Source of the DNA: a virus
Reading direction: 5' to 3' (one strand)
DNA length: 32,302 nt
Virus record (IMG/VR): IMGVR_UViG_3300009081_000030
Coordinates: 1 to 32,302 of that record
Both the position numbers and the translations under genes were made by a program. Under the pieces are notes generated by a model. The model searched no databases. It was not told the origin of the DNA and saw nothing but the letters and a program-made list of their open reading frames with translations. Below, one piece after another: positions 3,560 through 30,219 of this stretch; position 1 is the stretch's first letter, and each line of letters starts with the position of its first letter.

Positions 3560-5533
3560 TCAATACGGCACGGGCATGGCGTACTGCCCGCCGTACTGGT
3601 ACGTGGGCGGCACGTAGCGCTCCGGGCCAAGTCCTCCCGCGCCCAGCCCCGCGGCCAGCGCCTGCTGGTTGAACGGCATCTGATTGACCGCCGTGGGCAC
3701 AGGACGACGGACAACTGGCCGTGGCGCGGGCCGCGGCGCGAGCGCAACAGGCGGCACGTACGGCGCGATCTCTTCCTGCGGCTGGTTTATCAGTGCCTCA
3801 AGATCGGCCGTCACCTGCGCCTGCTGGGCATCCCGCGCCGCGTTGGCGGCCTCCATCTGATAGCTCCACTGGTTCTCGCCCTCGGGCGTGGTAATGATCG
3901 GCGTGGCGTGGAACAGATTGGGCGCCGTGCCTGGAGCTGGAAGACCGGCCAGTGGATCCGTTACAGGCGCAATGACTGGCGCCGTGGCCGGCCCTCCGCC
4001 TAAGCCTGAGGTATAGCTCGTGCGATTCAGCGCGTCGGCCGGGTTCATGGTCATCCAGCTCGGCTGGCCCGTGCCCGTCATCTGCGCCGCCATGGGATCG
4101 ATGTACTTCAGCGCCTCGGCCGTCGCCCGCGCCGCCTCGCCCGCCACGTCGCGATCGGGACGCGCCAGCTTGGTGTAGTCGATTGGCCCGGCGGCCTGGC
4201 CCTGCGCGGTCGCGTTCCAGACCTTGCCCATCTCGCCGAGGAAGTCGCCCGAGACCGTGCGCTTCTGCTGGTCTTCGATCGCCCGCTGGGCCAGCGTGCC
4301 CGCGCCCAGCGCGGCGGTCTGGGCCGACGTGCGCATGCCGGCGAGCTCTTTGCCGCGCTGGAATTGCGCCTCTTCCCCCGCGGCCCGCAGCGCGGCGGTC
4401 TGGGGCTCGACGTTCTGGTCCCACCAGGTGTTGAACTCGGCCAGCGCCTGGTCAGCGGTATACGTCCCGCTGACCTTCTTCATGACCTCGTCCTTCTTCT
4501 GCTGGGCCAGCGTCTGGAGCTGGCCGACCCGCGCGGCCACGTCGCCCGTCGTCTTGGGCTGCCAGTTCGGATTCTCGACGGTGACCGGCTTGCCCTCGGC
4601 GTCGGTGCGGACGATGTAGCGCTGGTCCGATGGCGCGCTCAGCGTGGTCGACTCGCGCGGCGTGGCCCGCTCGCCCACGTCGGTGACCGTCCACTCCCCA
4701 CCCGAGTACGTCTCGGTGACCTTGTAGCCCTCTTTCGTGTTCGGGCGGGTCTGCCCCTCCGTGGGTTGACCGGGCTTGGCCGGATCCCCGTACGCGACAG
4801 TCGTCCACTCGCCACCGACGAACTTCTCGGTGACGTGGTAACCATCCTTGACGTTGGATCGCTCCTGTCCCTCAGTTGGCTGCGGCTTGCCCGCGTTGTG
4901 CGTCGTGAGCGACTTGCCGTCCCACGAATAGATCGCGCCCGTCGACTGGTTCTGGATGATCTGCGGCTTGTCGGGCGTGGCCGCGATGAGCGGCGTGAGC
5001 TTCGCCCCATCCCACGAATAGACAGCCCCGCCCGCCCCGGACACGACGGTCGGCTTCCCGCCAGCCGCCACGTCGGGCACGTCGATGGTCGTATTCGTGG
5101 CCGGGTCGCGCAGCTTGATGACCCTGCTCGGATTGTTCGGATCGTAGATCCGCTCGAGCTGGTCGGCCGCCGTGGGTGTGGGCTTGGTCGCCGTCGCGGA
5201 TGGGTCCGGCCAGTCGGTGTATTGCCCTGTCGCAGGGTCATACACCTTGACGACACGCGTCGTCGTGTCACCCGCCGGAATAGGGTTGCCATTGATATCA
5301 ATGCGCACCTTGTCGCCCAAGGGACTCGGCGCGGGACGTACCTGCGACACCGTGGCGATCGAGTTCAGCACCTGGCGGTAGTTGTCCTCGAGCTTGTCGA
5401 GACGCTCCCGCGCAAGCAGTGCCGTCGAGGTCGGCTTCCCGGTTTCTCCAACCTCCTGGGCTGCTGCCCGCGCCTCATCGATCTGCTGCTTCATCACCGC
5501 AGCTTCTTGTTGCAGCGCTTGCAGTGTCTCCAT
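3560..5533 (-). CDS. Large repeat-containing virion protein, 657 aa
   Basis: ATG start with AGGGAGAAGG just upstream, 11 bp after the stop of the 2060-aa gene. Residues 1-65 are a coiled coil. Residues 90-300 are beta-type repeats: two YSWDG.xLT units near 172-180 and 202-210, and two roughly 37-residue units near 219-256 and 257-293 sharing P-T-E-G-Q, K-x-G-Y-x-V-T-E and G-G-E-W-T. Residues 330-500 are helical and Ala/Gln-rich, and the last 150 are Pro/Ala-rich, ending in a Tyr/Gly/Pro tail. Not recognised as a known family. It lies between the ejection-type protein and the scaffold candidate, so a second internal virion or ejection protein is plausible. Confidence 0.75.
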   Translation of the reverse strand: METLQALQQEAAVMKQQIDEARAAAQEVGETGKPTSTALLARERLDKLEDNYRQVLNSIATVSQVRPAPSPLGDKVRIDINGNPIPAGDTTTRVVKVYDPATGQYTDWPDPSATATKPTPTAADQLERIYDPNNPSRVIKLRDPATNTTIDVPDVAAGGKPTVVSGAGGAVYSWDGAKLTPLIAATPDKPQIIQNQSTGAIYSWDGKSLTTHNAGKPQPTEGQERSNVKDGYHVTEKFVGGEWTTVAYGDPAKPGQPTEGQTRPNTKEGYKVTETYSGGEWTVTDVGERATPRESTTLSAPSDQRYIVRTDAEGKPVTVENPNWQPKTTGDVAARVGQLQTLAQQKKDEVMKKVSGTYTADQALAEFNTWWDQNVEPQTAALRAAGEEAQFQRGKELAGMRTSAQTAALGAGTLAQRAIEDQQKRTVSGDFLGEMGKVWNATAQGQAAGPIDYTKLARPDRDVAGEAARATAEALKYIDPMAAQMTGTGQPSWMTMNPADALNRTSYTSGLGGGPATAPVIAPVTDPLAGLPAPGTAPNLFHATPIITTPEGENQWSYQMEAANAARDAQQAQVTADLEALINQPQEEIAPYVPPVALAPRPAPRPVVRRPVPTAVNQMPFNQQALAAGLGAGGLGPERYVPPTYQYGGQYAMPVPY

Positions 5534-8500: not shown

Positions 8501-11500
8501 CCCATGCCGCGCGCGGCGAGATCCTCCTTGTCGAGCGCAATGTCGTACGCCCGCTGGGCGTCCCTGAACCGCAGCTCGGCATCGCGCAACGACAGACGCA
8601 CGGGCTCGCGCCCCATCTCCTCCAGCGCTTCGGTCTCGATACGCCCCGTCTGCCGCTCGGCGGTCCGACCCGTCAGATCCTCCAGGTTCGTCTGCAGCCG
8701 CGCGACCTTCGCCTCGGCAGCCTGCACCGCGGCCGTGCCCGGCCCGCGCCCCTCAGCCTCCAGCTTTTCCAACCCCGCCAGGTCGCGCTCGGCGTTGCGC
8801 AGCGCGATCTCGGCGCGGTCGGCTGCTGCCGTCCCGGCCACCGGGCGCAACGGACGAGCGCCCACCTCGGCCGCGACCTTGCGCTCCGTGGCGAGCGCCT
8901 TGTCGGCGTTGTCCATCTGCTCGAGGAAAACCTCGAGATCGACGCGGCGGTGTTTGGGCACCGCGCTCAGATCCGCAGTAGTTAGCCGCTCCAGCGTGGC
9001 CAGCGCGGCATCCTGGTGACCCTCGTAATTGCGCGAGGCCATCCACGCCTTCTGCTCGGGCGACAGCGGCTCGCCCTGCAAGCGCTCGAGGTGATCCTCC
9101 AGCGACTTGAGCCGCGCGCGGCGGTCCGTCGTCCGCTCGGCGGCGGCCGACAACCCGTTGAGCACCTGCTTGACCTCGTCAGGCGTGGGATCGATCGGCA
9201 CCTCCTGGCGGATCACCTTCTCGCGCATCGTGCGGATCCTGGCGGCGTCCTCGTCTGCCGCTCGCAACGCATCGGACGCGTCCGGCGCCAGCGCCGTCCC
9301 CGGTGATGGCGTCGTACGCGCCAATCCACCGGTCGGCGCACCCATGGCGAAGCCCACCTCAGCCTCGGCCGGCAGCCGCGAGCGAACCGCGGCCTGGACG
9401 GCGGGCGAATCCGCCGCCCGAAAGGCGCCCTGCGTGCCCAGCGCGCCGCTGATGCCACCGCCCAGACCGCCGGCCAATTGCGCACCCGTCTGCGCCCACT
9501 CCGGCCAGCCGGCCTCCTGCGCCTTCTCGAGCGCGAGCTCGGAGCCGATCGCACCACCGGCGAGCTCGGCCGTGCCCTGCGCGATCGTGCGCAGCAGGGA
9601 GCCCTGGCCGGCGGTCAGCGCCGAGAGCAGGACGTTCGCCGGCGTCACCTGCGCCACCGTGTTGCGAACAAACCGCTCCTGCCCTGGATCAGGATCCCAG
9701 CCGGCCGCCTTCGCGGCATCGACCACCCGTCCTGAGAGCGCCTGCCCGGCGGCCACGTCCGCGCCGTACAACTGGCCGGGCGCTCGGCTGATCTGCTCGC
9801 TCGATTGGATGACCGACTCGCCAACCTGCTCGACGGGGTTGTACGGCCGGTCCTGCAGCCCCAGGCGCTCCTGCTCGGCCTGGCCGCGCAGCTCGTCGGC
9901 GATCCGCTGCTGCTCGCCCAGGCCGGTCGTCAGCGGCTCGGTCACTTCGGCCACCCGATCGATCGCCTGGTCGAGCTGGCGAACCACGATGTCCCCGAGA
10001 TCCTGCGCCCGCGTGCCCAGCGTCGAGACCGGCTCCCTGACCTTGTCCACGACCTCGCCGCCCAACTGCTGGATCTCCTGAACCGCGCTGTCCTTCTGTC
10101 GACCTATCCAGTCCAGCGGGTTGGTATCCATGCCCGCGATGCTCTGGGCCGCCACGCTCGGGTTATCGGCGATCAGCGCCCCCTGCATCACCCCGCCGCC
10201 CAGCGCGGCCTCCATCTGGGCCGCGCTCATCCAGTCCGAGCCGCCCCGCAGATCCGTCCCGCTCGAGCCGACGTGGTACTTGCCCGTCTTGGCGTCGTAG
10301 TCATCGATCGTGAAGTAGTGCTTGCTGGTGCTGATGGTGACCGGGTTGCCCGTCTGCGCCTCCTGGGTGACGCGATTCCAGTCGCGGCCCATGACCAGAT
10401 CGACCGGGATCCCCAGCTTCTCCATGAGTTTGTGCTCGGAGGCGATGCCGGCCATGCCCTGCGCCGCCGTCCAGCCCACCGTCTTGGCCAGATCGACGGC
10501 TTCGCGGAGCGTCGGGTTGCGCCCGAAGCGCTGCGCAAAGCGAACCGCGGCGGCCGGCCCGCACGCCGCGGCTGCTTCGCCCGCGCTGAGCGCGGCGTCT
10601 CCAAACTGGCTGATCTGCCCCAGCGCACCGGTCGCCGCCTGCTGCGCGCCCGCGACCACGTCGCCCGCGCCCTTCTTGGCGCGATCGACGGCCTGCTCGA
10701 ACAGACCGGGCTGGTCGGGCACGCTCTTGTCGATACCGGAAAACCCGGTGATGCCCTTGGCCGCGGCCCCGTACCAGGCGCCCCAGCCGCTCTTCTTGGC
10801 ACGATCCAGCGCGTAGTCGACCGACGCTTCCCAGCCCCTGGGATCGCCGGGGGCGAAGCCGGTCTCCGCCGTGAAGCTGTTGCCCATGCCCGCTACGTTG
10901 CCGAGGTGCTCGTAGCCCTTGCCGCCGTAGTGCAACTGGAACGGATACCATGACGAGCCCGTCTTGAACGTGCCCCGCCGCGCGGCTTCCATCCCGCCCT
11001 CGGAGTTGGCTACCGTGAGCGCCGTCTGCGGATCGATCCCGCGCACCTGGGCAGCACGCGTGATGTAGGCCCGCACCTCATCGGGTGACGGGTTCGGGTT
11101 GACCCCGCCCGCCTGCGCTGGCGGCGGCGCCGCTGCGGCAGGCCCGGTGACGCCCGCGCGGGCGGCGCGCGACGGCGGCTCGAGATCGCGCGTCGGCACG
11201 AGGTCCGGCCGCACGGCGGGTGGTCGCTCGGGCGGCGTGATCACCTGCTGCAGCGCGGCGCGGGCACGAGCGCCCTGGTCGCCCACGCCGCTGTTGAACG
11301 CCTCGATAAAGGCCCCGACATCGCCGCCGCGAGCCTGGACCGCCTGCAGCGCCGAGCTCAGCGGCGACGGACCGGCCCGCTGCGCCTCGACCACGGGCGG
11401 AGGTGGAGTCGCCACCGCAACCGGAGACTGCACCTCCGGCGGCGATGGCGGCGTGACCACCGGCGGCGGTTCCACCGGCGGCGGTTCCACCGGCGGCGGT

Positions 11501-17727: not shown

Positions 17728-17967
17728 GCAATTAAAATTTTTCCTACGCTGACCTTCAGCTAAGAGGGGGCGCCGGCGTGAAGGGGGGGTGGTGGTACCC
17801 GTACGGCCTCTCGGTTGGGGCTCCGCGGAGGGAACGCGCGTTCCACAGTTTGAACGTGCGTGCTAGCCTGCGCAACTGGGGCCAGGTTGAGGTTCAGGGT
17901 GTCGTCTAATCTCAGAATGGGGCGCCGTGGGCCGCTACTCCAGTTACTACTGCAGTTACCCCCCGCC
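17728..17967. other. Non-coding gap between TerS and TerL
   Basis: This 240-bp stretch breaks an otherwise coupled operon. An open frame crosses it but looks compositional. It contains the paired 12-bp repeat near the TerS end, several short inverted GC-rich elements, and a strong AGGAAAA ribosome site before TerL. A packaging recognition site, a promoter for TerL, or a protein-binding region are possible. I cannot choose between them from sequence alone. Confidence 0.5.
17935..17959 (-). repeat. Paired 12-bp repeat near the TerS 3' end
   Basis: On the minus strand two head-to-tail copies of a 12-bp unit, GTAACTGCAGTA then GTAACTGGAGTA, lie 8 bp beyond the TerS stop. The same unit, also in pairs with the same 12-bp period, flanks the attP core at 22365-22388 and 22587-22610. 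Confidence 0.85.
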
Positions 17968-20680: not shown

Positions 20681-21937
20681 ATGACCAGTATACGAAAAGC
20701 AAAAGCCCGTGCCGATGGCGAGGGCAGCATCTACTTCAGCGAGTCAAAACAACTATGGGTTGCCACGACGCGTCACGAGGGCAAGACCATTGAGAAGAGC
20801 GCCAAGCTGCGTAAGGACGCGATCAAAAAGCGTGACGAGTGGCTCAAGCAGCGAGACGCCGGCCTCAACGTCAAGGCAGACAAGTGGCTCCTGGGTGACT
20901 GGCTCGACTACGCACTCGAGCGCAAGACGCCGCGCTACGACAAGGCCGGCAATCGCACCGAGGGCATCGAGCCGACCACGCTGGAAAAGTACGAGACCGT
21001 AGCTCGGCTGCACATCAAGCCGTTCCTCGGCACCGCGCAGCTCAGCATCAAGTCGCTGTCGCCTGAGCGTCTCGAGCGCTGGCAACGCGACCTGGAGGAT
21101 AAGGGCAGAACAGCCGGCATGCGGCGCGAGGCGTTGATGTGGCTTAGCCAAGCCCTGGACCTCGCCGTCCGCCGGCGCCTGCTGCCCTACAACCCGGCCG
21201 ATAACAAGCAGATCGAGCGGCCGCGGGTAGCCACGCGAAAGCACGTCCAGCCGTCCGAGGCAGACCTGGCAAAACTACTGCGCGCGATCGCCGACGACCC
21301 CCTCGAGCTCCTCGCCTGGATTGGGCTGGGTACCGGCCTGCGCCGTGCCGAGGTCGCCGGCCTGTGGTGGGAAGACGTGACCTACCCGACCAAAGACACG
21401 GCCATCATCCGCACCCACCAGCGGGTCAACCGACTGGGCAGACGCATGACCCAACGCTTGGGTAGGACGAGTAGCCGGCTCGAGCGCGAGGGGCTGAAGA
21501 GCCAGCCTGAGCGCATCGTGCACGTCGCTGGGCTGGTGCGTGCCGTGCTTGACCGGCACTACAACCATCAGCTCGCACAGCGCATGGCGGCCGGTCCCGC
21601 GTGGCGTGGCGCCGATTACCACGCTCGTGGGCGCACCGGGTTCATCTTCACCTCGAGCATCGGCACACCCATCGAGCCCGACAAGATCAGCAAGTACTTC
21701 ACTGAGATACGCGAGCGAGCCGAGCTCGACATCAATCGCTTCCACGCGCTACGGCGCGCGCTCAGCACGCTGCTCGACAAGGCCGGCGTGAGCGATCGCG
21801 TCAGCATGCAGATCCTTGGGCACGCCAACGTCGAAATGACGCACTACTACAACACGCCCATGGACTCGCAGCTCGCCGCTGCCGCCCAGGCAGTCAACGG
21901 TGAGCTGCAGCGCTTGCTGGCACTCGCTGACGCATGA
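20681..21937 (+). CDS. int: Tyrosine-family site-specific integrase
   Basis: 418 residues. The N-terminal arm-binding domain is at 10-60 (GEGSIYFSESKQLWVATT), the core-binding SAM-like domain at about 68-175, and the catalytic domain from about 185. Catalytic residues: R221 in GTGLRRAEVAGLWW, K273 candidate, H355-x-x-R358 in FHALRRALS, H381 in ILGHANVEMT, and Y390 (or Y389) in THYYNTP. All key positions are present, so it should be active. It lies about 500 bp from a half-tRNA attP core flanked by paired 12-bp repeats that fit arm-type sites. Its stop overlaps the next gene's ATG. Confidence 0.95.
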   Translation: MTSIRKAKARADGEGSIYFSESKQLWVATTRHEGKTIEKSAKLRKDAIKKRDEWLKQRDAGLNVKADKWLLGDWLDYALERKTPRYDKAGNRTEGIEPTTLEKYETVARLHIKPFLGTAQLSIKSLSPERLERWQRDLEDKGRTAGMRREALMWLSQALDLAVRRRLLPYNPADNKQIERPRVATRKHVQPSEADLAKLLRAIADDPLELLAWIGLGTGLRRAEVAGLWWEDVTYPTKDTAIIRTHQRVNRLGRRMTQRLGRTSSRLEREGLKSQPERIVHVAGLVRAVLDRHYNHQLAQRMAAGPAWRGADYHARGRTGFIFTSSIGTPIEPDKISKYFTEIRERAELDINRFHALRRALSTLLDKAGVSDRVSMQILGHANVEMTHYYNTPMDSQLAAAAQAVNGELQRLLALADA

Positions 21938-22278
21938 AGACGCGCGGTGAAGGCAAGGGCAGCATTTCTCAACGCTCAGACGGCCAGTGGGCAGCCCGCG
22001 TGTCGTGGAAGAGCAAACAGCAGTACCTCTGCTCGAGCAAGCAACGCGAGGTGGTCGAGGCACGGCTGGCAGCGTGGCTCGCCGATCCCTCTGAACCTGT
22101 GCGCACCCAACGTCAGAAGCAACCCTCGCCCACGGTCAGCGCCGAGCCGGCACCATTGCCAGTGCCGTCACCCGTTCAAATTTCACGCTATTGCCGAAAG
22201 CGCAGTCATTGGGCATGTCGCGGCACCGCTGGGCATCGTCCTACCCAACAAGCCTGTACCTGTGCGTGCCACGCGTAA
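21934..22278 (+). CDS. Stand-alone integrase arm-binding-like domain with Cys/His tail, 114 aa
   Basis: ATG in an ATGA overlap with the integrase stop. Residues 1-52 (GEGKGSISQRSDGQWAARVSW, then a basic helix) have the same layout as the integrase N-terminal arm-binding domain (GEGSIYFSESKQLWVATT). After a Pro-rich linker (about 53-82) the C-terminus has C-x4-H-x2-C-x12-C-x-C-x-C-H, a likely zinc site. No catalytic domain follows. It may occupy or compete for integrase arm sites, acting as a directionality or accessory factor. It could also be a remnant of a duplicated integrase, but the coupled start and intact frame argue for function. Confidence 0.7.
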   Translation: MKTRGEGKGSISQRSDGQWAARVSWKSKQQYLCSSKQREVVEARLAAWLADPSEPVRTQRQKQPSPTVSAEPAPLPVPSPVQISRYCRKRSHWACRGTAGHRPTQQACTCACHA

Positions 22279-22284
22279 CTGGAG
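22275..22284 (+). repeat. Single copy of the attP-type repeat (first 10 bp)
   Basis: GTAACTGGAG, identical to the first ten bases of the paired 12-bp unit found nearby, overlaps the stop end of the stand-alone domain gene. It may be a single arm-type site. Confidence 0.5.
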
Positions 22285-22364
22285 CACTTGCCCCGAACGA
22301 GCGTTCTACATTTGATCTCAGTTTTGCTCTCTTTAGGGGTCAAAATTGAACTCAAAGGACGCGC

Positions 22365-22388
22365 GTTACTGGAGTAGTAACTGGAGTA
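22365..22388 (+). repeat. Paired 12-bp repeat, left arm of attP
   Basis: GTTACTGGAGTA followed directly by GTAACTGGAGTA. It lies about 75 bp left of the half-tRNA core. Same orientation as the right-arm pair. Fits integrase arm-type binding sites. Confidence 0.8.
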
Positions 22389-22415
22389 GACCGGAATCCA
22401 GACGACTGGATGTGG

Positions 22416-22443
22416 AAAGGCCCACCAAATTGGTGGGCCTTTT
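22416..22443. terminator. Bidirectional hairpin terminator
   Basis: AAAGGCCCACCA and TGGTGGGCCTTT form a perfect 12-bp stem around a 3-base loop, with an A-run on one side and a T-run on the other. It separates the rightward integrase operon from the leftward early operon and can stop transcription from both. Confidence 0.85.
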
Positions 22444-22457
22444 GATCTCATTCGACC

Positions 22458-22507
22458 AGGAGCGGGGAACGGGGCTCGAACCCGCGACCTCAACTTTGGG
22501 AATGTTA
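22458..22507 (-). other. attP core: 3' half of a tRNA gene
   Basis: On the minus strand: anticodon loop TTCCCAA (22502-22496, anticodon CCC if intact, suggesting tRNA-Gly), stem half AGTTG with a partial match TAACA on the other side, a short variable region, a complete T-arm GCGGG-TTCGAGC-CCCGT (22485-22469), the acceptor 3' strand TCCCCGC and a T discriminator. No D-arm or acceptor 5' strand is present upstream, so this is not a working tRNA. It is the identity segment that would restore the host tRNA on integration. Confidence 0.8.
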
Positions 22508-22586: not shown

Positions 22587-22610
22587 GTAACTGGAGTCGT
22601 AACTGGAGTG
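22587..22610 (+). repeat. Paired 12-bp repeat, right arm of attP
   Basis: GTAACTGGAGTC followed directly by GTAACTGGAGTG, about 80 bp right of the core. Mirrors the spacing of the left pair relative to the core. Confidence 0.8.
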
Positions 22611-22643
22611 CGTGAGGCACAAAAGAACAGGTGTTTGGAACGC

Positions 22644-22901
22644 TTACACGCTGTGGTCAATGGCGCTCCTCACCCGCTGCGACGACGATCGCTCGAGCTC
22701 GGCCTGCACGAGCGCTCGCGCGTCTCGTAGGCTCGCAGCCGCCATCGCCGTGTAACTTTCTTCGTCCTCGCCGATGAATACCGTGTCGATCCAGTCTTCG
22801 AGCGTGACCTCGGCGCTCTCCGTGCCGTAGTTGCCATCGCTCACGGCTTTCCTGAACGTCACCCGTACCTGGCGCCACTGGTTGCGTCGCTCGTCACTCA
22901 C
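22644..22901 (-). CDS. Hypothetical protein, 85 aa, last gene of early operon
   Basis: The frame is open further, but GTG 22901-22899 overlaps the previous gene's stop (GTGA). The N-terminal half is beta-rich (WRQVRVTFRKAVSDGNYGTESAEVTL), the C-terminal half a helix (TAMAAASLRDARALVQAELERS). The fold impression is a small alpha/beta protein. I do not recognise it. It is next to attP and after the excisionase candidate. Confidence 0.65.
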   Translation of the reverse strand: MSDERRNQWRQVRVTFRKAVSDGNYGTESAEVTLEDWIDTVFIGEDEESYTAMAAASLRDARALVQAELERSSSQRVRSAIDHSV

Positions 22902-23161
22902 GCTCGTTTCCTCCGTGGCGGCTCGGGCAGCTCGTACACCGGCCGCGGGTTGGCGCCGACTGCCTTGTCTTCGAGCCAGCGCGCGAGAGCTTCGCGGTGG
23001 ATGCGCACAAACCGCTGGCCACGGCGCAGGACCGGGAAGCCGGGCTCGTACGACCAGGTATCCAAGATCTCGAGGCTGACCTGGCACCACTCGGCCGCCT
23101 GTTCGCGCGTCAGTAGCACTGGCGCATCCGGCTGCCAGTCCTCAAAGTTGGTCGCAGTCAT
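22898..23161 (-). CDS. xis: Excisionase-like winged HTH protein, 87 aa
   Basis: The preferred ATG 23161 lies within the last codons of the primase-helicase gene (20-nt overlap); a longer frame starts at 23206. Residues 13-70 (VLLTREQAAEWCQVSLEILDTW, then PVLRRGQRFVRIHREALARWLED) match the MerR/HTH_17 type fold used by phage excisionases: helix, turn, helix, then a beta wing with RIHREAL. The basic tail ends RRKRA. With an integrase and attP beside it, Xis is the natural role. A plain transcription regulator is the alternative. The gene symbol is by role and context. Confidence 0.7.
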   Translation of the reverse strand: MTATNFEDWQPDAPVLLTREQAAEWCQVSLEILDTWSYEPGFPVLRRGQRFVRIHREALARWLEDKAVGANPRPVYELPEPPRRKRA

Positions 23162-25430
23162 GCTCGTCAAACCTCTTGTGATGAACTGGGCACAGCTCCT
23201 CGACAACCTGCGGCTTGAGGATCACCCGCTCGGGACACGGCTCGTGCGCCTCGTACACGTCGACCGTCAGGTTCTTCATGCAATGCACGCAGTACCGCAT
23301 CTCTGCCCGCTCCTCGCGCGCGCGCGAGAAATCTTTGAAATCTGAGGAAGCTGTGGAAGCAGGGGAAACAGTGAAATCCGTGGAAGGTGGGTCAGTCTCC
23401 AGTTGTTTCACTGATTCCCCTGTTTCCTTGATTTCTAATCGCGCGCGCGCGGGAAACCAGTAAAACGGTCCCTGCCGGCTCTCTCGTCGGACGCTGATGC
23501 CCAGCTCGCGGCGTGCCCGGCTGAGCGTGGCCGGCGCCGTCGAAACGCCCGACTCTTTCAGCAGCCGCTCGGCGTCCTTCGACCAGATGCCAACGTTGGC
23601 ATCGACCCCGGCCATGATCTGCGCCAGGGCTTGCTTGCATTCGGCCAGCACGCCCATCTCCTGCACCGTGCCCGACCGATCCATGGCCACGGTCGCGTCG
23701 ACCAGCACCGGTTCCTTGTCCCACACCAGGATCGGCGGCTGGTCGCGCTCGTCCACCCGCGGCAGGATCTTCTGCCGCGTGGTCTCGATGCGGTAGCCGA
23801 TGCCCATCATCGGCACGCCGACGTTCAGCTTGATGGGCAGCAGCAGGCGCCGCTTGCCTTCGTCGTCGTTCGGATCGGGCGCCACGCCCAGCACGATGCG
23901 GCACGCGGCCGGAAAGGCAATCGAGCCCGTCGCGCGATAGAGCGCCGCCACGCCCGATCCTTTCGTCAAGTGAATGACCAACAACAAGACGATGTTGGTC
24001 CGCTCGGCCATCATCTGCAGCGGCCCCAGCACGCGCCGTACGTCGCTCTCCTTGTGGGCGTTGATGTTCGGCCCGAGGTACGCGGAGACGGGATCCATGA
24101 CCACGAGGCTCGCGCCTTCGCGCACCACGAGCTCCTCGAGCAATTCGAGGTGCTCGTCCAGCGCGAACATGCGCTCGACCTTGCTGGCGTCTTCGCCGAT
24201 CACGCCGCGCACGGCGACGATGCGCGAGCAGTCGGCACCGGCGGCCTCCAGCCTGGGCTTGACCGTGTCGGCCAGCCCATCCTCGATGGTGAACAGGATC
24301 GCGGAGCCCTGGTCGCACCGCCCGCCGTCCGGCCACTCGCCGCCAACCGACACCTGCGCTGCCGTCCAGTGGGTGATCAGACTCTTGCCCAGACCGGGGT
24401 CGCCCATCAACAGCGTGGCCTTACCGCGCGCGAAGCGCCCACGCCACAGCCAGTTGAGGGCTTCGTTCTGCACCTCTGACATACGCTCGGCCTCCAGTCC
24501 AGCAGCCGGCGACTCCGTCGGCGTACGCCGCGTCTGGATGGGCGTTGGCCTGCCTGAGGACGGATCCTGGTCTGCCGGACTCCAGGCGCGCCCGAGGCCG
24601 GACTCCAGTCCACTGCGAATCGTGGCGCGCACACTCCGCTCGCCGTCCTCGTTGATCAATCCGTTCTGATGGCACGCATCGAGCAGTCGCTCGACCACCC
24701 ACTCGGGCTGAAGATCGTGCATCGGCTCGGCCACCAGTCCACCCAGCAGATGCGCCAGTCGATTGCATGCAGTATTCCGTCCGCTGGCGCGTGGCATGCT
24801 GGCCAGTTCTTCAGTCTTCACGACGCTGAACCGTTGCGCCCATTCGGCTAGCCCGCGTTTGAACACGCTCGGTTTGCCCTTGCGCCGCGGCGACGGCGTG
24901 TAGACCGGCACCTCCGGCAGATCGTCAGGATCCAGCAGCCGGCCGTGCTGCTGACGCGTCTCGTGCACGCCGCCGGGCGGGCAGCTCGGCAGGTACGAGA
25001 TGCGTGACGAGTCCTTCGTCGCGGGGTCGATGCACCCGCCAAAAAAGGCGTTGGCGCGCAGCCAGAAGGCTGGCCAGTCGGCGCCAGGAATTGGTCCCAC
25101 CAGCGGCACCACGACGCGCCAGCGCGGTGCCTCAGGCGTGTGCTGAAACGTCGTATGCGCGACGTACTCGTAGCCCTCGAGCAGATCCAGCGGCAGCTCG
25201 CCGTGGTCGATGTCGAGCACCAGCGCGAAGACCTGATCGACGTTGGCCTTGCCGCGCGTGGTGCCCGGTAGATAGGTCACGGGCGACCACGCACGGCCAT
25301 CCTTGGTCGGCCGCTCGTCGTAGCGGCTCAGGCGACGGGCGAGCGCATGCCAGCCCATGTCGTGGCGCGTGGGCTGGGGATCGTCTTTCCCTTCGAAGAC
25401 AGAAATGGGGATGGTGAAGTCGTCGTTCAT
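23142..25430 (-). CDS. Primase-helicase, prim-pol-like domain plus RepA/DnaB-type ATPase, 762 aa
   Basis: ATG start with AAGGCGAG upstream. The N-terminal 1-175 look like a plasmid/phage prim-pol domain: metal-type D73/D75 in ALVLDIDHG, PEAPRWRVVVPL near 99-110, and DSSRISYLPS near 140-149. A helical linker follows. The ATPase domain has Walker A GDPGLGKS at 343-350, Walker B SLVVMDPVSA with D446, and H487 in LLLVIHLTKGSG, as in RepA/KaiC-like helicases. The C-terminal 55 residues contain CVHC, CPER and LCPVHHKRFDEHDC, a probable zinc module. This is the main replication protein visible here; no DNA polymerase gene is in the window. Confidence 0.88.
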   Translation of the reverse strand: MNDDFTIPISVFEGKDDPQPTRHDMGWHALARRLSRYDERPTKDGRAWSPVTYLPGTTRGKANVDQVFALVLDIDHGELPLDLLEGYEYVAHTTFQHTPEAPRWRVVVPLVGPIPGADWPAFWLRANAFFGGCIDPATKDSSRISYLPSCPPGGVHETRQQHGRLLDPDDLPEVPVYTPSPRRKGKPSVFKRGLAEWAQRFSVVKTEELASMPRASGRNTACNRLAHLLGGLVAEPMHDLQPEWVVERLLDACHQNGLINEDGERSVRATIRSGLESGLGRAWSPADQDPSSGRPTPIQTRRTPTESPAAGLEAERMSEVQNEALNWLWRGRFARGKATLLMGDPGLGKSLITHWTAAQVSVGGEWPDGGRCDQGSAILFTIEDGLADTVKPRLEAAGADCSRIVAVRGVIGEDASKVERMFALDEHLELLEELVVREGASLVVMDPVSAYLGPNINAHKESDVRRVLGPLQMMAERTNIVLLLVIHLTKGSGVAALYRATGSIAFPAACRIVLGVAPDPNDDEGKRRLLLPIKLNVGVPMMGIGYRIETTRQKILPRVDERDQPPILVWDKEPVLVDATVAMDRSGTVQEMGVLAECKQALAQIMAGVDANVGIWSKDAERLLKESGVSTAPATLSRARRELGISVRRESRQGPFYWFPARARLEIKETGESVKQLETDPPSTDFTVSPASTASSDFKDFSRAREERAEMRYCVHCMKNLTVDVYEAHEPCPERVILKPQVVEELCPVHHKRFDEHDCDQL

Positions 25431-27852: not shown

Positions 27853-28310
27853 ACCTTCCAGCCTTCCTTGAGAGTGCGCACGACCTCCTGCTCGTCTTCG
27901 GGTCGCCACAGGAAGCTGCGCAGGCTACCCAGGTCGCGCGTCCAGGCGAGCCAGCGCTCCTGATCCAGGGTCGTCCGACCGCGGCGGGTCTTGAGCTCGG
28001 CCAGGATGACCAGACGCCGCTCAGGATGGACGAGGAACACGTCTGGAAAGCCTGAGGCGTCGTCGTGGTCAGCCCCGCGCGGAAAGCCTCTGTTGGGGCT
28101 GTGCAGCCCTTCCATGACGCCCTTGCTCAGGCGCACTGCCTTCCCATGCCAGCCATAGAGGGCGGCCAGGGTGAAGACGTGATCCTGAAAGTCTTTCTCG
28201 CTGACGTTCAGCAGCCCGACGCTGGTCTTGCGCCGTACGGCCATCTTGCGGATGTCGGCGTAGCGCGGCCCGGTGCGGAACAGGGGGCGACGAAATGGCG
28301 TGAAGGTCAT
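27849..28310 (-). CDS. VRR-NUC nuclease, about 153 aa
   Basis: The frame opens further upstream, but ATG 28310-28308 overlaps the previous gene's stop (ATGA). After a basic N-terminus the nuclease fold has E38 in VSEKDFQDHVF, a central GKAVRLSKGVMEGLHSPN, D90 in SGFPDVFLVHP, E105-x-K107 in LAELKTRRG, and Q117 in LDQERWL. This is the PD-(D/E)XK VRR-NUC pattern. In phages these enzymes act on branched DNA during replication or recombination. Confidence 0.85.
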   Translation of the reverse strand: MTFTPFRRPLFRTGPRYADIRKMAVRRKTSVGLLNVSEKDFQDHVFTLAALYGWHGKAVRLSKGVMEGLHSPNRGFPRGADHDDASGFPDVFLVHPERRLVILAELKTRRGRTTLDQERWLAWTRDLGSLRSFLWRPEDEQEVVRTLKEGWKV

Positions 28311-28498
28311 GGTTCGGCATCCTGGTGACAGGGACACGCGCACGGTGGACGGACTAGCTCGGTGTTGGAACGCAGCCGACCAACGTAGCCCGTACACACG
28401 GCGTGGTTGGCGAGAATGCAGGCCCAGGCGATGCCTTTGGCGTGTTGGCGATTACGCCATGCCTTGCGCGCTTCGCGTAGCGCCGGCGAGCTCGGCAT
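28307..28498 (-). CDS. Small Cys/His protein, 63 aa
   Basis: ATG overlaps the Rpf stop (TGATG) and the stop overlaps the VRR-NUC start (ATGA). Longer frames shadow the Rpf gene. A basic helix (LREARKAWRNRQHAKG) is followed by C-x4-H-x2-C-x17-C-x-C-x-C-H, the same type of motif found at the end of the integrase-linked stand-alone domain protein. A zinc-binding tail is likely. Confidence 0.65.
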   Translation of the reverse strand: MPSSPALREARKAWRNRQHAKGIAWACILANHAVCTGYVGRLRSNTELVRPPCACPCHQDAEP

Positions 28499-28947
28499 CA
28501 GCGCAAACCCAATCGTCGTGAGCAGGCTGGCCAGGGCTGGAAGCCACGCGCGGCTCGGAGTTTCTCGGCGATGGCGATCTGCTGCGCCGGCGTGGCCAGG
28601 TGCGCACTGGACGCGTAGGCTCGGCCACCGTAAGCGGCCCACGTTTGCTGATCGAATTGCAGCCCGCCGCGGTACGTGCCGCCGCGACTGACGACGTGCC
28701 AGTCGCCAGTCGATTCGCACTGCGCCAGGCGCGCCCACACGCCTGAGACGGGGGTGGGTGACGGTGGTGCAGCGTGGGGCCAGGTGGTCCGCACATACAC
28801 TGCCGGCGTGACACCTACGGTGTCGCTGGCAGCCTGCAGATCGGACGGGTTGTCGATGCCGGCTTCCGCGGCCACGGTCGCGACATCCTCACCCTGGGCC
28901 AGCGCACCCAGCAGCAACATGGCTGCGGCCAGTACCGGTACCGCCAT
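28498..28947 (-). CDS. Rpf-like secreted muralytic enzyme, 149 aa
   Basis: N-terminal hydrophobic segment (VPVLAAAMLLLGALA, residues 3-17) as signal or anchor, a linker with Pro, then a resuscitation-promoting-factor domain at about 69-148: VWARLAQCESTGDWHV with catalytic candidate E78, YRGGLQFDQQTWAAYGG, ATPAQQIAIAEKL and WPACSRRLGL, with C77 and C142 placed for the usual disulfide. Rpf domains have a lysozyme/transglycosylase fold and cut peptidoglycan glycans. In this early operon it may act as an exported lysin or affect host wall growth. Start overlaps a tiny leader ORF. Confidence 0.85.
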   Translation of the reverse strand: MAVPVLAAAMLLLGALAQGEDVATVAAEAGIDNPSDLQAASDTVGVTPAVYVRTTWPHAAPPSPTPVSGVWARLAQCESTGDWHVVSRGGTYRGGLQFDQQTWAAYGGRAYASSAHLATPAQQIAIAEKLRAARGFQPWPACSRRLGLR

Positions 28948-28979
28948 CAGGCAGTGTTCTCGCGATGTAGGACGACCAT
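28947..28979 (-). CDS. 10-aa leader peptide coupled to the Rpf gene
   Basis: ATG 28979-28977 has a strong GGGAGGAG ribosome site directly upstream; the frame (MVVLHRENTA) ends in TGATG, overlapping the Rpf ATG. The Rpf gene itself lacks a clear ribosome site, so translation through this short frame would set its expression. Confidence 0.45.
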   Translation of the reverse strand: MVVLHRENTA

Positions 28980-28982
28980 GAA

Positions 28983-28996
28983 CTCCTCCCGAGGAG
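28983..28996. promoter_or_regulatory. Inverted repeat covering the ribosome site of the Rpf leader
   Basis: CTCCTC-CC-GAGGAG is a perfect 6-bp inverted repeat that contains the leader's GGGAGGAG. In RNA it could mask the ribosome site, though the 2-base centre makes a simple hairpin strained. Confidence 0.3.
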
Positions 28997-29013
28997 AGAT
29001 GGGGTCAGGTGGC

Positions 29014-29271
29014 CTAGGCGACCGCTTCTCGATAGCGCGCTTCGACCACGGGCGACGGACGAGCGACCAGATGTATGGCGAGGTCGGGGTAGCGGGATAA
29101 GCCGGCCTCGAGGATGGGCGCGGAGAAACGCGCTAGGCCGCGGGTGGTGCGACTCCAGGTAGCAGGGTGGACACCGAGCGCGGCCGCCTTCTGGGCGCCG
29201 CTGTGAAAGCCATCCTGCTCAAGGCGCGCATCGAGCTGAGACAGAAAGGCGCGCATCGCACTGATCAGCAT
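29014..29271 (-). CDS. Cro-like regulator, 85 aa
   Basis: ATG 29271, with an alternative ATG five codons later (29256). Residues 24-60 (SGAQKAAALGVHPATWSRTTRGLARFSAPILEAGL) form a helix-turn-helix with recognition helix around HPATWSRTTRG. It is divergent from the repressor gene and first in the early operon, exactly the Cro position. Its promoter -35 box is inside an inverted repeat. Confidence 0.75.
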   Translation of the reverse strand: MLISAMRAFLSQLDARLEQDGFHSGAQKAAALGVHPATWSRTTRGLARFSAPILEAGLSRYPDLAIHLVARPSPVVEARYREAVA

Positions 29272-29283
29272 GCCTGAGCGTGC

Positions 29284-29313
29284 AGTCTAGTGCGGCACAT
29301 TGCGCCAGAGCAA
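29284..29313 (-). promoter_or_regulatory. Promoter of the Cro-like gene and early operon
   Basis: On the minus strand TTGCTC (29313-29308), 18-bp spacer, TAGACT (29289-29284). Transcription would begin about 6 nt before the ATG at 29271. The -35 box is embedded in operator 1. Confidence 0.5.
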
Positions 29314-29314
29314 T
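29299..29314. promoter_or_regulatory. Operator 1 (Cro-side)
   Basis: ATTGC-GCCAGA-GCAAT, a 16-bp perfect inverted repeat overlapping the -35 box of the early promoter. Its plus-strand sequence aligns base for base in frame with operator 4. Confidence 0.6.
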
Positions 29315-29361
29315 CCCCGAAGACTGCCCAATTGAGGGTGTTTCGTGACTTGCCGTTAACC

Positions 29362-29375
29362 GTGCGTTTACGCAA
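29362..29375. promoter_or_regulatory. Operator 2 (central)
   Basis: GTGCG-TTTA-CGCAA contains TGCG-TTTA-CGCA and differs from the TTGCG-N4-CGCAA form at one outer base. Confidence 0.5.
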
Positions 29376-29386
29376 CGATGGAGCAA

Positions 29387-29401
29387 TGCGCCGTTGGCGC
29401 A
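29387..29401. promoter_or_regulatory. Operator-like palindrome 3
   Basis: TGCGCC-GTT-GGCGCA, a 15-bp perfect dyad between the two promoters. Related in sequence words but with a different centre, so it may bind the other regulator. Confidence 0.4.
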
Positions 29402-29430
29402 CGAATCACTCACAATCTGCATGGCGTGCA

Positions 29431-29444
29431 TTGCGTAAGCGCAA
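29431..29444. promoter_or_regulatory. Operator 4 (repressor-side)
   Basis: TTGCG-TAAG-CGCAA overlaps the -35 box of the repressor promoter, which would allow autoregulation. Confidence 0.6.
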
Positions 29445-29460
29445 CGCTTAGTCGTATTCT
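29431..29460 (+). promoter_or_regulatory. Promoter of the repressor gene
   Basis: TTGCGT (29431-29436), 18-bp spacer, TATTCT (29455-29460). The ATG at 29473 would be about 6 nt from the transcription start and has no ribosome site, so translation is likely leaderless or nearly so. Confidence 0.5.
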
Positions 29461-29472
29461 GATGTCCTACCT

Positions 29473-30219
29473 ATGTCCAACGGGCAAGACTGGGCAAGGC
29501 GCGTGCAAGTTGTGCGCGAGGGTCGTGGCTGGAGTCGTGACGAGCTGGCCAAGCGAGCCGGCATGAGCGCTACGACGATCTGGCGCATAGAAGGGGGGAA
29601 ACTTGACCCGCGCCCTGCAACCCGCGGCAGGATCATGCTCGCTCTCGGCTTTTCTGACGAGGACTCGTTCTTCAGTAAGCCATTCCGCTTATTACCCACC
29701 GACGGAGCACTGCGGAATGGAATCAATGCGTTCGAGTCCAACGTCGAGGGCTTCCTCGAGGATCTGCGACCACCAGGGACGGCACTCCTGCCGATCTACC
29801 AGTGGGGCGCCTGTGGAGACCCACGTGACGCATTCAGTGCACCTGACCCTGTGGATCACGATTACGCACCCATAGGGGAAGAGCGTTTGATTGGCCCGAA
29901 CGGCAAGGGCATCCGTATCAAAGGAGAAAGTCTGGCCAATCGAGACATCCACGACGGCGACACCGTGTGGGCCAATCCCGACATGCCTCCCCGCATAGGA
30001 CGTGTCGTGCTTGCACGTGTGTGGGGTTATGACATCACTGCCTACGACAGCGTTGAAGACGGAGGAATGGTCGTCAAGGTTTGGAAAAACCGCGACGGAA
30101 TCGAAGGACTCTGGGGTGACGGCGATGGTCACAACGGCTCAAATCCCGTGTTGTGCAGCCGCTATGAGGTGATCGCCCCCGTGGTCTGGGTCCAACCGCA
30201 AGGACATCCGCCAAGGTGA
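29473..30219 (+). CDS. CI/LexA-type phage repressor (XRE HTH plus S24 peptidase-like domain)
   Basis: 248 residues. HTH at about 10-45 (QVVREGRGWSRDELAKRAG, then MSATTIWRIEGGKLD). After a linker comes a S24-type C-terminal domain: candidate self-cleavage bond C114-G115 in WGACGDP, nucleophile S153 in KGESLANRDIHDGD, and K202 in GGMVVKVWK as general base. The Ser-Lys spacing of 49 is somewhat longer than in LexA or CI. The Cys-Gly site recalls UmuD. This predicts RecA-dependent induction by DNA damage. It is divergent from the Cro-like gene with operators in between. Confidence 0.88.
   Translation: MSNGQDWARRVQVVREGRGWSRDELAKRAGMSATTIWRIEGGKLDPRPATRGRIMLALGFSDEDSFFSKPFRLLPTDGALRNGINAFESNVEGFLEDLRPPGTALLPIYQWGACGDPRDAFSAPDPVDHDYAPIGEERLIGPNGKGIRIKGESLANRDIHDGDTVWANPDMPPRIGRVVLARVWGYDITAYDSVEDGGMVVKVWKNRDGIEGLWGDGDGHNGSNPVLCSRYEVIAPVVWVQPQGHPPR

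Follow-up and report, generated by a model that had tools for sequence, protein, structure and literature searches.

Why would a phage encode an arm-binding (AB) domain in a gene of its own, beside an integrase that already carries one? The direction of lambda-type recombination is decided by the occupancy of arm-type sites, which is normally set by integrase, Xis, and DNA-bending proteins. A separate AB-domain gene, if it acted on these sites, would add a further titratable control on recombination direction. We examined such a gene in a whole virus record of 32,302 bases (IMG/VR record IMGVR_UViG_3300009081_000030), referred to here as the window. The record encodes a terminase, a primase/helicase, a transglycosylase, an S24-type repressor, and an integrase, and the small gene in question is placed between the integrase gene and attP (Table 1).

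Table 1 Coordinates of the features discussed, in window positions.
Feature	Position	Strand	Remarks
Third pair of arm-type sites, after the terS-like stop and before terL	17935..17959	−	Kept in the closest relative (L207), sequence altered
Tyrosine integrase, 418 aa	20681..21937	+	Own N-terminal AB domain, PF14659, PF00589
Small gene, 114 aa: AB-type domain, proline-rich linker, Cys/His tail	21934..22278	+	ATG on the integrase stop
Arm-binding-type domain (β3-α, AP2-like), residues 2–53	21937..22092	+	Profiles, alignment, AlphaFold
C-x4-H-x2-C-x-G-x10-C-x-C-x-C-H-A tail, residues 87–114, putative metal-binding	22192..22275	+	Pattern and homologues
Left arm-type site, includes the TAA stop of the small gene	22275..22287	+	Without counterpart in L207
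Left arm-type pair, 12-bp spacing	22365..22389	+	Without counterpart in L207
Perfect 13-bp inverted repeat, then TTTTGATC; inside attP	22416..22442	.	
attP core, exact 44-bp identity to the 3′ half (anticodon loop to CC of CCA) of a Chloroflexota tRNA-Gly(CCC)	22459..22502	−	
Right arm-type pair, 12-bp spacing	22587..22611	+	Kept in L207, sequence altered
Xis-like HTH protein	22898..23206	−	phrog_66, E 9e-5; 75% identical over 73 aa in L207
Second small ORF, 62 aa, ends in the same Cys/His module; adjoins the end of the transglycosylase gene	28310..28495	−	

An arm-binding-type domain without core-binding or catalytic parts

The start codon of the small gene and the TGA of the integrase gene share the nucleotides ATGA, with the small gene in the −1 frame. 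A −1 frameshift fusion of the two proteins was considered and rejected; the frame fits, yet no slippery heptamer is seen at the overlap. Reinitiation is preferred over frameshifting as the route of translation.

All seven residues that are invariant in the AB alignment are present in the small protein (R4, G9, R14, D16, G17, W19, and R38), and codon bias supports the frame of this part of the gene (+0.23, versus at most −0.26 in every other frame). A profile of Chloroflexota integrase N-terminal domains matched residues 2–53 with an E value of 2.1e-16, compared with 2.5e-5 for the resident integrase, and a viral AB profile gave 6e-14 and 3.5e-12, respectively; the small protein was excluded from both profiles, yet the profile members had been collected by searches seeded with it, and the E values are somewhat optimistic. 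Independently of these profiles, the N-termini of Thermus phage integrases are matched by the small protein (tblastn, E 1e-3). With 40 aligned sequences as input, AlphaFold predicted a β-β-β-α arrangement for residues 10–49 at pLDDT 81–91, in which strands at 10–13, 19–25, and 28–34 form a three-stranded sheet packed on one helix (37–49). Structural matches of this fold include AP2 domains and the N-terminal domain of Tn916 integrase (1bb8 and 1b69, Z 4.2 and 3.8, 23–24% identity); the matches are weak and non-discriminating, with a best Z of 5.1 and the Tn916 structures level with many unrelated ones. Foldseek returned no significant PDB match for the small protein. Beyond the AB domain, the linker and the Cys/His tail are all that follows, and no core-binding or catalytic part is encoded.

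Pfam models of the AB domain (PF14657 or kin) did not match the small protein at E values up to 1. Among 12 aligned AB domains of the subgroup to which the small protein belongs, a single one matched PF14657, and weakly, which indicates that this model misses the subgroup. PHROG and Pfam searches of the small protein, excisionase families included, were also without a match, and the predicted β3-α fold is not a winged-helix/HTH fold. Compared with the N-terminal AB domain of IntTn916/lambda-type integrases (PF14657 and relatives; PMC8138268), the small protein shares the RGxGEGSIxxRxDGxW...R pattern, the predicted fold, and a place beside arm-type sites and attP, whereas it differs in being encoded by a separate gene, in having no core-binding or catalytic parts, and in carrying a Cys/His tail. 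An initial annotation of this DNA had described an ORF overlapping the integrase stop that encodes an AB-type domain alone, and on both counts the description holds. Its proposal that such a protein could compete with or assist the integrase and set recombination direction is partly supported, namely in the stand-alone AB-type domain with a conserved Cys/His tail, its coupling to integrase, and its place beside a genuine attP with arm-type sites.

The small AB domain and the N-terminal domain of the resident integrase are ∼20% identical, and BLASTP aligns nothing between them. At this identity, a (recent) duplication of the resident AB domain is unlikely, and the integrase and the small protein may recognize different DNA. 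Searches of viral contigs, phages, and plasmids identified no close relatives of the small protein except integrase N-termini, and no true orthologue was found in any collection searched.

Occurrence of stand-alone AB genes

The AB profile was used to search 400 Chloroflexota genomes, and most of the short frames among the strongest matches listed were inspected. No intact stand-alone AB gene beside an integrase was confirmed among the short frames inspected from these matches; the candidates proved to be broken integrases or contig ends. A further candidate, L047, was rejected: its AB fragment stands in isolation, and the gene after it is unrelated. Broken integrases that retain an AB domain are common in Chloroflexota, and nearly all of those inspected continue into core-binding sequence.

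About 70 distinct viral contigs contained one other free AB gene, found on L089/L090 (IMGVR_UViG_3300004241_000317 and 3300027719_000273), which are seemingly one element in two assemblies. This gene (L089, 3711–3965, +; 84 aa) is located directly upstream of a full integrase, with a TAATG overlap. It resembles the small gene in encoding a free AB domain on its own and in the stop/start overlap with a full integrase. It differs in lying upstream rather than downstream, in having an N-terminal extension and no Cys/His tail, and in belonging to an element unrelated to the window phage, so the stand-alone AB design seems to have arisen at least twice. Taken across these searches, the design is rare. 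We found no described stand-alone AB protein in the open-access literature, and the initial annotation likewise knew of no described factor of this design.

A Cys/His module at the C terminus

Codon usage in the tail is poor (GC3 0.50, compared with about 0.82 in phage genes). The DNA pattern encoding the tail occurs once in 201 Chloroflexota genomes (a handful of times in the reversed control) and in none of 200 simulated windows. In the 32-kb window it occurs twice (22192, +; 28325, −), both times immediately 5′ of a stop codon. The related phage G411 (L229) encodes a separate 74-aa protein with the module (46% identity over 41 aa); as in the window, its gene lies 3′ of a co-oriented integrase-like gene, though ∼2.3 kb off. 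Cys, His, Cys, Gly, Cys, Cys, Cys, and His are kept in all three proteins with the module. The rarity of the pattern in genomes, set against its two copies in the window and the G411 homologue, indicates that the tail noted in the initial annotation is a real protein module despite its codon bias. The tail, for which AlphaFold gave no confident model, likely binds metal, and the small protein resembles a fusion of an AB domain with a phage Cys/His module. A weak match to phrog_15767 as the tail family failed to hold up in the window, and a degenerate-peptide search of viral contigs confirmed no tail homologues.

These features bear on whether the small gene has a present role at all. It could be the remnant of a replaced or truncated former integrase, its AB domain later joined to a Cys/His protein. 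Such an origin would fit the poor codon bias of the tail, the frequency of AB-retaining broken integrases in Chloroflexota, and the closer similarity of the small AB domain to other Chloroflexota integrases than to the resident one. However, all seven invariant residues are intact and the frame of the AB part is coding-like, the start codon coincides exactly with the integrase stop, the module in the tail is conserved, and no trace of core-binding sequence follows the AB domain, whereas nearly all broken integrases inspected have one. We therefore consider a functionless remnant unlikely.

Arm-type sites around attP and between the terminase genes

In the species-genome collection, the 44-mer of the attP core was present in two Chloroflexota MAGs alone, at three places in total. 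This exact identity to tRNA-Gly(CCC), found only in Chloroflexota genomes, makes a Chloroflexota bacterium very probably the host of the phage. Intact tRNA genes were not found in the window or its relatives.

The pattern TAACTGGAGT, with at most one mismatch, has eight matches in the window, compared with 0.5 expected and 0 of 100 shuffles. A weight matrix, derived from the same seven sites that it scores, separated seven GTAACTGGAGTAG-like sites from the remainder (19.8 versus 10.3 for the next). Five of the seven flank the attP core (22275, the pair 22365/22377, and the pair 22587/22599); the other two form the pair between the terminase genes. The initial annotation had placed repeated arm-like sites beside attP, and these counts support it. 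The inverted repeat within attP, together with the following TTTTGATC, is likely the terminator of an operon of integrase and the small gene.

A terL search yielded 22 related viral contigs, of which L207 (IMGVR_UViG_3300020121_000208) is the closest relative. Its gene order is that of the window (primase, Xis-like, integrase, HTH, GP88, terS, and terL), and its integrase is 67% identical. The small gene is absent, and the integrase stop adjoins a convergent gene. This gene, at the place of the small gene, is PAPS-reductase-like (4547–5329, +; PF01507, E 3.5e-16). The attP of L207 bears another tRNA-like sequence than that of the window. Its right arm pair, changed to GTGACTGCAGTAATCGCTGCAGTGCG, lies about as far from the core as in the window, and its terS–terL pair (9752–9775, +) consists of TGACTGCAGTAG twice, altered like the right attP pair; none of the three left-arm sites of the window is present in its attP. 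Because L207 has both pairs without the small gene, the sites go with the integrase, or with some other factor that both phages share, rather than with the small protein. The GTAACTGGAGTAG sites probably belong to the integrase, with the small protein as an optional add-on. As judged from this one phage pair, gain or loss seems to have affected the small gene and the left-arm sites jointly.

The Xis-like gene is separated by attP from the integrase and small genes; the phage thus probably already has its usual directionality factor. Lambda Xis, Tn916 Xis, TorI, and RdfS are likewise small proteins encoded beside integrase and attP, as is the small protein with its possible influence on recombination, but they are winged-helix/HTH proteins, whereas the small protein is of the AB type and accompanies a separate Xis-like HTH gene. 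Since L207 lacks the small gene yet has an integrase, a conserved Xis-like HTH protein, and the right arm pair, the comparison argues against a core role of the small protein in recombination direction.

Between the window and L207, the position of the terS–terL pair is conserved and its sequence covaries with the attP arm pair. In G411 (L223), which is more distant, a different, 13-bp-spaced pair, GGTACCGTYCGCWGGTACC, occurs after terS and twice in another intergenic region, in which no tRNA fragment was recognized. Paired sites of this kind might mainly be operators, through which transcription of the integration and packaging operons is controlled by the small AB protein or by a different regulator of the phage. 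The covariation of the terminase-gene and attP pairs and the G411 pairs away from a recognized tRNA fragment are consistent with such a role, and a precedent exists in KplE1, where proteins that bind in the att region control the intS promoter (PMC2951348). However, the occurrence of both pairs in L207 means that the small protein cannot be the sole binder, and most of the sites (five of seven) lie around the attP core. In addition, a promoter scan, itself uninformative, gave no promoter-like match near 17937. The divergent repressor region (28940–29480) lacks a paired site; operators there were ruled out, the sole near-match having no partner. A mainly regulatory function of the paired sites is the main rival to the model proposed below, though on balance unlikely.

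The small protein as a candidate modulator of arm-site use

We propose, with a probability of roughly 0.45 for the full model, that the small protein, as an accessory factor, modulates how integrase uses its arm-type sites. Translation coupled to that of integrase would supply a free AB domain, which would occupy some of the arm-type sites of attP, most likely the extra left-arm sites (22275–22389). This occupancy would change the number of integrase protomers that bridge arm and core, and recombination would be damped or steered as a result. For the Cys/His tail, the model envisages metal binding and a part in self-association or in contacts with another protein. We infer DNA binding by the small protein, the sharing of sites with integrase, the sign of the effect, and metal binding.

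The modulator model is favored by the AB match and fold, the ATGA overlap, the place of the gene between integrase and attP, and the number of arm-type sites above chance. It is favored further by the joint absence of the small gene and the three left-arm sites from L207, by the parallel in L089/L090, and by the reported effect in trans of the separated lambda Int N-domain (described below). It is weakened by the ∼20% identity between the two AB domains, by the ability of L207 to manage without the small gene, by the single phage pair available for comparison, and by the weak fold matches.

Action by contact rather than DNA competition, in which the free AB domain would join the integrase complex in trans and stimulate it, is quite doubtful, because an AB domain is already part of the resident integrase, even though the overlapping genes would yield matched protein amounts and the separated N-domain of lambda Int reportedly modulates the catalytic (C-terminal) part in trans, with a stimulating effect (work of Sarkar, Radman-Livaja and Landy, 2001). 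Like the small protein, that domain is a free AB domain, and the recombinase on which it acts is reached in trans; it is a laboratory construct made from the same protein, whereas the small protein is encoded by a natural separate gene.

The covarying pair beside terL raises a possible link between integration and packaging. A broader view would hold both that natural stand-alone AB proteins are an undescribed class of integrase modulators and that the arm sites maintained at the terminase genes in this phage group let the integration machinery directly sense or control packaging; we regard this combination as unlikely.

Related repeats and the integration site

Four terL relatives (L222, L218, L208, and L223) have a 12–13 bp tandem repeat directly 3′ of terS, each with its own sequence; in G411 (L223) the repeat unit is found again near 12.4–12.6 kb of that record. 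In the MAG CP_BM_ER_18 (L004, 7011–7716), at one of the three places of the 44-mer, an integrase-like fragment adjoins the 3′ half of tRNA-Gly(CCC), with no intact tRNA there; another element has apparently integrated at the same tRNA-Gly(CCC) site. A TTTGATCTCA element recurs in attP and terminase intergenic regions, at 22311 and 22441 of the window, 35864 and 41192 of G401, and 12539 and 24202 of G411, and several of these copies lie directly 3′ of a hairpin, in a terminator-like arrangement.
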